NCBI GenBank assembly: GCA_014896315.1
Contig: JADBKP010000002.1
Coordinates: forward strand, 1-64,000
Length of the DNA stretch: 64,000 bases
DNA from: Limnochordales bacterium
GTDB lineage: Bacteria; Bacillota; Limnochordia; Limnochordales; DUMU01
Reading direction: 5' to 3'
Part shown: positions 16,352-45,396 of the stretch, in pieces
Position numbering within the stretch: position 1 is the stretch's first letter
Layout: each line of letters begins with the position of its first letter
The notes under the pieces: model-generated
Told to the model about the DNA's origin: nothing
Seen by the model: only the letters and a program-made list of their open reading frames with translations
Database searches by the model: none
Made by a program: the position numbers and the translations under genes

Positions 16352-16427
16352 TGGTGGGGACGCACGGGCTCGAACCGTGGACCTTCCGCACGTCAAGCGG
16401 ATGCTCTCCCAGCTGAGCTACATCCCC
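16352..16427 (-). tRNA. tRNA-Val (GAC)
   Basis: 76-nt cloverleaf on the minus strand, starting GGGGATGTAGCTCAGC. The anticodon stem TCCGC/GCGGA encloses loop TTGACGT, giving anticodon GAC. The T arm has GGTTCGAGCC and the CCA end is encoded. It is the last of six tRNAs and the second valine tRNA of the cluster. Confidence 0.96.
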
Positions 16428-16442
16428 GAAAACCGTAACACT

Positions 16443-16517
16443 TGGAGGCGGGAGTGGGACTCGAACCCACGTATAAGGCTTTTGCAGAGCCTTGCCTTGC
16501 CCCTTGGCTATCCCGCC
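16443..16517 (-). tRNA. tRNA-Cys (GCA)
   Basis: 75-nt cloverleaf. The anticodon stem AGGCT/AGCCT encloses loop CTGCAAA, giving anticodon GCA. The acceptor is GGCGGGA with U at the discriminator position and an encoded CCA. Confidence 0.96.
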
Positions 16518-16530
16518 GAAAGAGAAACGA

Positions 16531-16606
16531 TGGAGCGGATGACGGGCCTCGAACCCGCGACCTCCACCTTGGCAAGGTGGCGTTCTACCACTGAACTACA
16601 TCCGCT
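16531..16606 (-). tRNA. tRNA-Gly (GCC)
   Basis: 76-nt cloverleaf starting AGCGGATGTAGTTCAG. The anticodon stem CCACC/GGTGG encloses TTGCCAA, giving anticodon GCC. CCA is encoded. Confidence 0.96.
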
Positions 16607-16614
16607 CGCAAAAC

Positions 16615-16690
16615 TGGTGGCGAGAGGCAGAATCGAACTGCCGACACGGGGATTTTCAGTCCCCTGCTCTACCAACTGAGCTATCTCGCC
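16615..16690 (-). tRNA. tRNA-Phe (GAA)
   Basis: 76-nt cloverleaf starting GGCGAGATAGCTCAG. The anticodon stem GGGGA/TCCCC encloses CTGAAAA, giving anticodon GAA. CCA is encoded. This tRNA is the expected ligand of the pheS T-box. Confidence 0.96.
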
Positions 16691-16695
16691 AAACC

Positions 16696-16773
16696 TGGCG
16701 GAGCCGACGGGAATCGAACCCGCGATCTCCTGCGTGACAGGCAGGTGTGTTAGACCGCTACACCACGGCTCCG
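16696..16773 (-). tRNA. tRNA-Asp (GTC)
   Basis: 78-nt cloverleaf starting CGGAGCCGTGGTGTAG. The anticodon stem CCTGC/GCAGG encloses CTGTCAC, giving anticodon GTC. CCA is encoded. Confidence 0.96.
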
Positions 16774-16811
16774 TGAAAACTTATTGTCAAACTCCTTGTC
16801 AAACTTCTAAA

Positions 16812-16889
16812 CTGGTGGGCGGAAACGGACTCGAACCGCTGACCTCCTCCTTGTAAGGGAGGCGCTCTGACCAGCTGAGCTATCCGCCC
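16812..16889 (-). tRNA. tRNA-Val (TAC)
   Basis: 78-nt cloverleaf starting GGGCGGATAGCTCAGC. The anticodon stem CCTCC/GGAGG encloses CTTACAA, giving anticodon TAC. CCA is encoded. It is first in the cluster and reads valine codons with purine in the third position, complementing the GAC tRNA. Confidence 0.96.
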
Positions 16890-41268: not shown

Positions 41269-41586
41269 GTGCGCATTTCTAAGAAGTGGGCTGTCCTTGG
41301 GATTTCGTTGTTGCTGGTTACCTTCGTGGCCGCCGGCTGCGGCAAGAAGGATGAAGCGACCTCCGAGGAGACCACAACCGAGGAGACCACCACCACGGAA
41401 GATACCTCTACCGACGTTACGACTGACACCCTCGGAACCGAGACCACCGATACGCTAAGCACCGAGAGCACGGATACCACCGCGGCCGACGCGACCACAA
41501 CGGACACCGCGACCACTGACGCGACCGCTACCACCGACGCCGGCACGCTTGACACTACTACTACAGACACTACTAGCTCCTTCTAA
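41269..41586 (+). CDS. Small Thr/Asp-rich lipoprotein
   Basis: A lipoprotein of 105 residues. The signal peptide ends in VAAGC, so lipid attachment at Cys24 is likely. The mature part is almost all Thr, Asp, Glu, Ser and Ala in irregular repeats of the TTTDT and TTEDT type, strongly acidic and without structure. Such a chain could act as a surface spacer or glycosylated stalk, or bind cations; that is speculation. GTG start with AAAGAGGAGAGGG upstream. It is a one-gene unit with its own promoter and terminator, so real expression is plausible despite the low complexity. Confidence 0.8.
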   Translation: MRISKKWAVLGISLLLVTFVAAGCGKKDEATSEETTTEETTTTEDTSTDVTTDTLGTETTDTLSTESTDTTAADATTTDTATTDATATTDAGTLDTTTTDTTSSF

Positions 41587-41620
41587 TAGCTGGAGGCTCG
41601 GCGTCAAGGGTAAGCAAAGT

Positions 41621-41687
41621 GACCGGCATCTGGGCCGCTTTACGGAGTCGGCCCAGACTTAGGCTCAGGTGCCGGTCGCTTGCTTTT
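41621..41687 (+). terminator. Two-part hairpin terminator after the lipoprotein gene
   Basis: Outer stem GACCGGCA...TGCCGGTC (41621-41628 with 41670-41677) encloses an inner stem TCTGGGCC...GGCCCAGA. It is followed by GCTTGCTTTTT. Confidence 0.8.
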
Positions 41688-41801
41688 TCGTTATTGCTGT
41701 TCTATTCTCCAACCATTTCCCAGGTCTCTGTGTGAACGTCCGTCGTCTTCCCTGCGTCTGAGCAGACGATACTCCGGCAGAAAGGATGCGAGGGGTTCAC
41801 T

Positions 41802-41873
41802 ATGGACTTCTTCACGTTCATCGGCATAATCGTGGTGGCCTGGGTAGTTCTCAAGCACCTGGGTGGTCTTTGA
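41802..41873 (+). CDS. 23-residue hydrophobic membrane peptide
   Basis: Very short frame encoding MDFFTFIGIIVVAWVVLKHL plus GGL. The sequence is one clean transmembrane helix with an acidic start and a basic residue near the end. GAGGGG lies seven bases before the ATG. A perfect 12-bp hairpin follows 18 bases after the stop. It lies in a space of about 750 bases with no other firm gene. No known family is recognised. Real small membrane proteins look like this, but chance cannot be ruled out. Confidence 0.5.
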   Translation: MDFFTFIGIIVVAWVVLKHLGGL

Positions 41874-41891
41874 TTGAGTATATAAACTCTG

Positions 41892-41923
41892 GCTGCACGT
41901 CTCCCCCACGCGAGACGTGCAGC
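41892..41923. other. Perfect 12-bp hairpin
   Basis: GCTGCACGTCTC, eight bases, GAGACGTGCAGC. There is no T-run on either side, so it is not a standard terminator. It follows the 23-residue peptide frame and may stabilise or end its transcript. Confidence 0.6.
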
Positions 41924-41954: not shown

Positions 41955-42341
41955 CTACATCCTGATTGCGGGTAAGTTTGCCCGCCGCCACAGACGGCAG
42001 CGCCCTTCCAGGCGACTGCCCGGCGGTAACTTTTGTGAGGACGTAGCGGCAATCCGGCGCGCAACGGAGACCGGCTGTCTGGGAGCGTCCACTATGGTGA
42101 GGCTGTTTACCACAATCTCGGTGCGGCATCCTGCCGGAGTAGACCGGGTACACTCCCGCCTTATCTCAACCCGTGGCATGATGACGTGCAGTTCATGAGG
42201 GGTGGGGTCATCGGAGTGTCGGGTCACGGTGATCCGAATCTCCGGAAGGTCAACGTGCACCTCATCAGACAATACCGGGTTGTTGCTCCGCCGGCGAAGC
42301 CTGCGGCAGCCAGACAGCCAGTCCTGCCATTTCCGTGTCAT
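41955..42341 (-). CDS. Doubtful hypothetical protein
   Basis: Open frame of 128 residues in a stretch with no other gene. The middle part (VHVDLPEIRITVTRHSDDPTPHELHVIMPRVEIR) alternates like beta strands, but the ends are Arg/Cys/Ser rich and uneven. GGGA near the ATG is a weak site. No family recognised. It could be chance in GC-rich DNA. Confidence 0.3.
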   Translation of the reverse strand: MTRKWQDWLSGCRRLRRRSNNPVLSDEVHVDLPEIRITVTRHSDDPTPHELHVIMPRVEIRRECTRSTPAGCRTEIVVNSLTIVDAPRQPVSVARRIAATSSQKLPPGSRLEGRCRLWRRANLPAIRM

Positions 42342-42450
42342 CCCGCATCCCACCAGCCGCGCTGCTGGTCTGAGCGTAACGGGGTCCTGCTGCCGCGACC
42401 ATCCGCCTGCAGTGCCTATTTTCTTTCCCCCTCAACCGGGCTTGGGAAAG

Positions 42451-43294: not shown

Positions 43295-45396
43295 TCAAGG
43301 GTTGGCGCCGCCCCTCCCGCCAGCGGGCAGCAGCTGAATCCTGAGCTCTTCCGCAGAAGTGGCAGGCTGGCGACAGGTTTCGCCCTGGCAGACGTAGGCT
43401 GCCGGGCGGCCGTTGATTCTGTCCTTGCCCTCCCAAAGCGGGAGCCCTGGCGGCACGGGCTGCCTGGGGTCGAGCCAGAAGAGGGTGGAGCTTGGCAGGA
43501 AAGCGCGGTCCACAACCCGGCGCAGTTCGGCAAAGCCCGGCTCGTCAGGAGCGCCGACCAGCACAATCTGGCGGCTGCCGGAGGCGAGGCGCAGGGCAAC
43601 CCGCCACAGCGTTGCACAGCCCCAGGCATTTCCATCCATTTGGGAACTGTACGATGCAAGAACCTGCTCGATGGTCTCACCCAGTCCCTCTCCACCGCTG
43701 CTCAGGTTCGGAAAGGCATCCCGCAGGCGTAGCGCGCCAAGAAGGAAAAGGCCGACCGGAGAAGGGGTGGATTGATCTGACGCCGCGGCGATCAGTCGCG
43801 GACCGTCTGCCAGCCCCAGATTCTCCGTCTCCACGGACCACAAACAGCCCTGCTCGCGGTCGAAGAAATGATCCAGGATCCGCCCCAGGTACTCGATGGC
43901 AAGCTCGAGATAGCGGGGCGCGAAGGTTGCCTCGTACAGGTCCAGAAGACCGTTCACGAAGGCGGCATAATCTTCCAAAAAGCCAGTGGCCGGGCCGGGT
44001 CTCTCCCGGAAACTGCGCCAAAGCCGCCCGTCGGGCAGACGCAAACGGGAGAGAATGAACTCGGCGGCGTGGATCGCGGCGTTGATGTATTCCTCTTTTC
44101 CCAGTGCCCGGCCGGCCCGGGCGAACGCGGAGATCATCAGCCCGTTCCAGGCGGTGATGATCTTCTCGTCGCGGTGAGGTCGGGGGCGAATGGCGCGGGC
44201 GGCCAGCAACCGCTTGCGAACAGAGGCAAGCCATGCGGCAAGCTGTGCGTCCGTCCATCCCTGGCGGGCAGCAAAGGCCGCCGGATCATCAACCGCTCCG
44301 TGCAGCACCGACCGGCCTCTCTCGAAATTGCCCGCCTCTGTCACGCCGAAGTACTCACAGGCAAGTCTCCCATCTTCTGGGCCGAGCACCTCGACCATCT
44401 CCGCCGGCGTCCAGGTGTAGAAACGCCCCTCCTCACCATGCTCGTCAAGATGGCCAAGGGGAACAGTTGGACCGGGCCCGGAGCTGCGGTCGACTTCAAC
44501 GGCACCAGGTACAGGGCTGTCGGCATCGAGGGTGGCGTAGAATGCGGTACGATCCAGCGGGAATCGGTCGAGTAGCGATGAAAACCGCCCCCTACCTGGT
44601 CATAGATGCCGCCTCTGGCCATCTCAAGCAGAGTCTTCGTCACCATCTCAAGCCATCGGCCCTGCTTTTTGGGCAGCAAGGCGTAAAGGTCGAGAAGGAA
44701 CTCGAGAACTGGAACGTTGGGGAACTTGGGAGGGCCGCCGAAGCCGCCGTACCGGTGGTCAAAGTACCGCCAGAGAGTCTCCGCCGCCGCCTGCGCTTTC
44801 TCTAACCAGTTCGGCGAGGGGATGGGAGTGGAGGAGAGTTGCGCTGGCCCTCGCCCCGCGCCCCGAGTTGATCCCTGCCGATGGTTTTCCAGAGCCTCTT
44901 GCACAGCGGTTGCCACCTGCTCCACTCGCTCCCGCTCTTCCACGAACAACCGGGAAAGTTCGCTCAAGACACGGGGGAACCCGGGGCGCCCCAGTCGGTC
45001 GCGGGGAGGGAAATACGTGCCTACATAGAAGGGCCGCAAGTCCGGGGTGAGGAAGACTGTCAGAGGCCACCCCCCCTGTTCGCCCATGATCAGGGCAACG
45101 AGCTGGTAGAGCTCATCGAGATCGGGGCGTTCCTCCCGATCCACCTTGATGTTGACGTAGAAGCGGTTCATCAGGTCAGCCGTCTCCTGGTTTTCGAAAG
45201 ACTCGCGGGCCATGACGTGGCACCAGTGGCAGGCCGAATAGCCAATGGAGAGCAGGATCGGCTTGTTCTCCCGGCGAGCCTTCTCGAGGGCCTCCTTCCC
45301 CCACGGATACCAGTCCACCGGGTTGTAGGCGTGCTGCAGCAGGTAGGGGCTGGTCTCGGCGATAAGGCGGTTGGGTTTGCGACCGCGGTACGGCAA
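43295..45396 (-). pseudogene. Broken YyaL-like thioredoxin-domain protein gene (DUF255)
   Basis: The intact family has an N-terminal thioredoxin-like domain and an alpha/alpha barrel of about 670-700 residues. Here the 5' part (from TTG 45396, after AGGAGG) reads well through [14 protein letters not shown] and [24 protein letters not shown]. It then goes out of frame near 44540-44546. The 3' part continues in another frame as [26 protein letters not shown] and so on to 43295. The conserved block that should lie between (HFEKMLYDN... to the next strand, about 45-60 residues) is missing. A short GCATT repeat sits at the joint. So it is a deletion with frameshift, not a simple base error. The 5' part alone could still make the thioredoxin domain. 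Confidence 0.85.

Follow-up and report, generated by a model that had tools for sequence, protein, structure and literature searches.

CcmD of the heme exporter is a small single-helix protein that works with an ABC exporter, and the microproteins described here would resemble it in combining a small single helix with an ABC exporter, while having no convincing Pfam or NCBIfam match of their own. Small accessory subunits of other membrane complexes include KdpF, CydX, AcrZ and DltX, for which the pertinent sections of PMC4325964, PMC7267776 and PMC10903887 describe a short single helix that is encoded with, or acts on, a larger membrane protein. The microproteins share this general design; however, the 27 members that we scanned matched no such family, and their usual neighbor is an ABC-2 exporter. 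At 21-24 aa they are also shorter than CydX (37 aa). By analogy with the small subunits covered by the same parts of PMC4325964, PMC7267776 and PMC10903887, a role as a small subunit is plausible for the microprotein. Fst-type and other type I toxins, as far as the portion of PMC10903887 on Fst describes them, have the size class and the single hydrophobic helix in common with it, but the microprotein differs from them in being single-copy, conserved and mostly linked to transporter genes.

The member from which this analysis started lies in a stretch of 64,000 nucleotides from a Limnochordales bacterium, the whole of which we refer to as the window. The features around it are as follows:

41269-41586, + strand: Thr/Glu/Asp-rich low-complexity lipoprotein gene, also 5' of the microprotein gene in the genus-mate G001
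41617-41692, + strand: terminator-like hairpin with a T-rich tail, after the lipoprotein gene; boundary of the microprotein unit, outside the gene
41790-41795, + strand: Shine-Dalgarno-like GAGGGG, 6 nt 5' of the ATG
41802-41873, + strand: microprotein gene coding for 23 aa with a single predicted membrane helix; conserved frame, matched by family profiles
41892-41923, + strand: perfect 12-bp hairpin with an 8-nt loop, 18 nt past the stop codon, without a T-run; probably marks the gene end

The frame opens with an ATG at 41802-41804 and closes with a TGA at 41871-41873, and its 23-aa product, MDFFTFIGIIVVAWVVLKHLGGL, forms a single hydrophobic stretch (GRAVY +1.76) that is predicted, from composition, to be a membrane helix. 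A preceding sequence-only reading had recognized here a short frame with a good ribosome site and one membrane helix, a description that the GAGGGG and the hydrophobic 23-residue product bear out; almost all of the other members inspected by eye likewise have a purine-rich ribosome site ahead of the frame. The same reading took the region to be otherwise devoid of firm genes, which does not wholly hold, as the lipoprotein gene stands 5' of the microprotein in both the window and G001. This lipoprotein has no Pfam match above cut-off. Since its gene ends in a terminator-like hairpin of its own, the microprotein gene appears to form a small transcription unit by itself; a similar inverted repeat is seen by eye between the lipoprotein and microprotein genes of G001.

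In all three genomes of the window's family that we compared (G000, G001 and G002) the start, stop, length and frame of the microprotein are identical, and the two family-mates of the window carry copies with 83% and 78% identity to it, whereas the flanking DNA aligns poorly among these genomes. We counted synonymous and non-synonymous differences by the Nei-Gojobori method in 14 hand-picked, equal-length pairs across the microprotein family and found pS to exceed pN in all 14, with values in the three family pairs of 0.55, 0.64 and 0.77 for pS and 0.09, 0.13 and 0.16 for pN. Stops or frameshifts in relatives, named at the outset as what would speak against the frame, are absent from G001 and G002, where it is intact, and the suggested comparison of synonymous changes came out in its favor, synonymous change being far in excess of non-synonymous change. 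The preservation of start, stop, length and frame in both other family genomes, together with the related short frames that bring the total to 38 genomes, places the frame beyond chance, and on these comparisons we regard the 23-codon frame as demonstrated to be a real, selected gene.

A profile of three rows (G000, G001 and G002) recovered new short frames in G019 (E 3e-4), G018 (E 0.006) and, weakly, G027 (E 0.26). The class-wide search with a six-seed profile then yielded 26 matches at E < 0.03; six were the seeds themselves, 19 were short frames not seen before, and the last, in a 466-aa frame (G001:C28), was due to chance. With a 27-row profile the microprotein is found in 27 of the 72 genomes of the class, as a single copy in each, although G033 has a further, weakly scoring match (E 0.04). 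A phylum sample of 398 genomes gave 17 matches, 15 of which we judged to be real, namely four from the class and 11 others, so that the family totals 38 members: 27 from class genomes and 11 from the phylum sample. Common to the family is the core L/F-I/V-G-x-V-V-x-W; G8 and W14 (window numbering) do not vary in the 27-row alignment, and V11, V12 and L20 hardly vary. The window member is a frame within the 21-24 codon range that carries this core, and it scores 35.9 bits (E 2.5e-8) against the 27-row profile and 46.9 bits against a six-row profile, both of which include it. All members are 21-24 aa long, given hand-chosen start codons, which are GTG or TTG in 6 of 37. Counts over 37 members leave out G035, which lies outside the 27-row alignment, has L in place of the core W and is counted within the 27 class genomes; its copy of c1, the permease described below, is on another contig. 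Two candidates had been dropped before these counts, G409 (Y instead of W, no ABC-2 neighbor seen) and G306 (a 12-aa frame). Profile matches that we judged to be chance lay inside a long frame, ran antisense to a gene or covered only part of the core, as in G056, G211, G235 and G295, and those in G003 and G004 fell in 341-aa frames.

Gene finders often miss genes this short. For this reason, and with no family-library model found, the microprotein may stay unannotated in the 27 of 72 class genomes that have it. The 27 members scanned against Pfam, NCBIfam and PHROGs gave no convincing family match: the best in Pfam was the cyanobacterial CAAD domain (E 0.0019; 8 of 27 rows), the best in NCBIfam over the 27 rows had E 0.1, and the best in PHROGs was a family without a function (E 0.001; 6 of 27 rows). 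We read these as matches to helix composition. KdpF and CydX were absent from the five Pfam and two NCBIfam families matched at E <= 1, a comparison limited by such very short queries, and no PDB chain matched the microprotein. We found no description of the family in the literature on the core motif or on small proteins with ABC/ABC-2 transporters, a survey with subscription journals mostly outside its reach; thus a single-helix microprotein family that spans many Bacillota is apparently undescribed.

Net charges in the 37 members are acidic at the N-terminus in 28, and at the C-terminus basic in 20, neutral in 15 and acidic in two. This distribution suggests that the N-terminus might lie outside and the C-terminus inside, although many members are without one of the charges.

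A toxin-like peptide was among the functions first proposed. A type I toxin, with its mRNA restrained by an antisense RNA, would likewise be one short hydrophobic helix, and the opposite strand within the frame carries a weak match to a promoter, at 41854-41826; nonetheless, the single copy per genome, the ordered neighborhoods and the conservation of the peptide under purifying selection make such a toxin extremely improbable. Furthermore, none of the 18 pattern matches in a scan of viral contigs was confirmed as a relative, the very short query being a limit on that scan, and the window has no Rfam match except its tRNAs. The microprotein has no match to a toxin model in Pfam, NCBIfam or Rfam, though an antisense transcript would not be visible from sequence.

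Neighbors of the microprotein gene were drawn from 34 larger stretches, with open frames called crudely by length and clustered by blastp, and three members were added to give 37. By raw count, an ABC-2 transport operon adjoins the microprotein gene in 29 of these. A permease of about 345 aa (c1), one of which was scanned and proved to be ABC2_membrane_3, is located 3' of the microprotein in 24 of the 37; its called start lies 73-293 nt past the peptide start codon in 23 members and 1.2 kb past it in G314. The ATPase c0 is downstream of c1 (in G062 the contig ends before c0), and between them there is often c2, a protein of about 170 aa that is secreted-looking by eye (loci L086, L093, L105, L107 and others), one representative of which matched nothing in Pfam or NCBIfam. 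The peptide starts 32-36 nt 3' of a c1-c2-c0 cluster in G033 and G034, in G340 and G384 it lies about 210 nt 3' of an ATPase and a different permease of 240 aa (c47), and in G392 a permease that appears ABC-2-like by eye begins roughly 1 kb 3' of it. No ABC-2 operon is next door in the remaining eight (G000, G001, G002, G018, G019, G068, G072 and G363), which include the window member and its two family-mates. In G068, c2 follows the microprotein, though the genome has no full-length c1; G002 has an ATPase of the c0 cluster upstream (673 aa, opposite strand) with no permease seen, and we did not count it as linked.

The order of these genes, with the peptide first, the permease next, often past a hairpin, and the ATPase further on (24 of 37), would also suit a peptide that is itself the cargo, that is, a short hydrophobic signal or antimicrobial peptide secreted by the adjoining ABC-2 pump. 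Consistent with this, the models nearest to one scanned ATPase were DrrA, RbbA, NodI and GldA, all below cut-off, and one permease weakly matched SagH (E 7e-6). We nevertheless consider a cargo role unlikely, as purifying selection has preserved the core even between distant families, unlike what would be expected of most secreted weapons, four members lie 3' of the transporter, and eight of the 37 have no adjoining exporter.

Across the 72 genomes of the class, all 21 with a full-length c1 carry the microprotein, versus 6 of 51 others (Fisher p 4e-13, relatedness uncorrected), full length being defined as E < 1e-100, a cut set after the table was seen. The six microprotein-bearing genomes in which full-length c1 is missing are G000, G001, G002, G018, G019 and G068; at a cut of E 1e-12, six genomes beyond the 21 have partial c1 matches (E 1e-13 to 1e-21), two of them, G018 and G019, with the microprotein. 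Within the genera g16 and g32, some assemblies of which are incomplete, three genomes have both microprotein and c1 and eight have neither. As linked genes can go in one deletion, such co-occurrence supports an association more than a mechanism. The c47 permease was not found at E 1e-8 in the six unlinked class members (G000, G001, G002, G018, G019 and G068), and the class search for this second permease type found none in f1, f7 or f15. Other PF12698 permeases are present in all eight unlinked members, which lends no support to a partnership because all 14 control genomes have them too.

In light of this contextual evidence, we propose that the microprotein is a membrane subunit with an accessory or regulatory role, in most cases for an ABC-2 exporter and with another partner in the window's lineage, a reading to which we assign a probability of roughly 0.5. 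Most likely, its helix would pack against a larger membrane protein; in most lineages the partner would be the adjoining ABC-2 export permease, as the order of the genes and their co-occurrence suggest. Since that transporter is missing from the window's lineage although the microprotein is there, the ABC-2 partnership cannot be the whole story, and in this lineage the helix would have to serve another partner. Of the three functions initially put forward, that of a small membrane-protein regulator is thus the best supported, on account of the ABC-2 linkage in 29 of 37 members and the tracking of c1, although the window's own family, with neither the operon nor the permease, does not share in that support. 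The microprotein and the c1 permease offer a concrete pair for studying the control of ABC exporters by very small helices, and the lineages with the helix but without the ABC-2 pump are now listed.

The hairpin behind the window's gene was described correctly at the outset as a perfect 12-bp stem without a T-run: its arms (41892-41903 and 41912-41923) are complementary at 12 of 12 positions, with -22.4 kcal/mol as RNA, and one T occurs within the 8 bases that follow. It thus has the GC-rich stem of an intrinsic terminator but not the directly following T-run, and the terminator scan did not report it. When the 110 nt 3' of the stop codon were shuffled 100 times, with dinucleotides approximately preserved, none of the shuffles gave an equally long perfect stem with a loop of 3-10. 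Perfect stems of at least 9 bp occur within 110 nt 3' of the gene in 11 of 37 members versus 8 of 340 other genes; the 11 cases are not independent, because seven belong to the single family f8, in which 7 of 8 members carry such stems, 10-13 bp long. In the window's family the longest perfect stem measures 12 bp in G000 but 6 bp in G001 and 4 bp in G002. Hairpins are therefore commoner here than after other genes, yet that of the window is not conserved. Other members have shorter or imperfect hairpins, some with T-runs. The window's hairpin probably marks the 3' end of the short transcription unit, either as a terminator without a T-run or as a stabilizing 3' stem; its gene-end position, and its lack of conservation even within the window's family, argue against the RNA-regulated element that had been suggested.

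A related possibility is that the frame is a leader peptide, the translation of which regulates the transporter downstream by hairpin-mediated attenuation, and many members do present a short frame, a hairpin, in some cases with a T-run, and a permease start 73-293 nt on (23 members). This is very unlikely, as the amino-acid sequence itself is conserved, four members lie 3' of the transporter, eight of 37 have none adjoining, and in the window no transporter follows.

Upstream of many members we observed a sigma-H-like motif, first spotted by eye on these very sequences. Its relaxed core, defined as AGGR, 16-18 nt and GAAT located 20-130 nt 5' of the start, is found in 19 of 37 members. It occurs in 25 of 1864 background windows, and in 18 of 337 control genes taken from 34 of the same stretches, with 30 others skipped (Fisher p 3e-12 for members versus control genes, relatedness uncorrected). 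When scored against the full consensus, quoted in the pertinent part of PMC8510167 as RNAGGAWWW and RNNGAATWW, 14 of 37 members have an observed score reached by at most 5 of 100 shuffles. The region upstream of the window member scores at best 7.5 of 11.5, under the shuffle mean of 7.97, and its family has neither the relaxed core nor a full-consensus score that stands out from the shuffles in this way.

This motif raises the alternative that the microprotein serves in the membrane during stationary phase or sporulation, as a small protein with a structural or regulatory role, its ABC-2 link being secondary. Unlinked members have neighbors that would fit such a role, named by eye as a CwlD-like amidase in G018 and G019 and FtsW-, MinD- and DegV-like genes in G072 and G363. 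However, the microprotein tracks c1 throughout the class and is linked to ABC-2 genes in 29 of 37 members, while the motif, besides having been noticed on the sequences in which it was counted, is absent from 18 of 37 including the window's family; we accordingly hold this alternative to be doubtful. More broadly, we tentatively posit, while thinking it somewhat improbable, that a sigma-H-driven helix of 21-24 residues could be a general early-stationary-phase membrane cofactor in Bacillota that docks on an ABC-2 exporter, sets its activity and, in some lineages including that of the window, is re-used on a different membrane partner.

Some further features of the window may be recorded. Downstream of the hairpin, a 132-aa frame on the opposite strand (41955-42353, - strand) has no Pfam or NCBIfam match and, among the loci compared, occurs only in the window's genome. 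What appears to be one long gene, recognized by eye as coding for a thioredoxin domain (43295-45396, - strand), is split into the overlapping frames 44341-45396 and 43295-44398, reflecting either a frameshift or an assembly error. At 16352-16889 (- strand), six tRNA genes stand in a row, for Val, Cys, Gly, Phe, Asp and Val.
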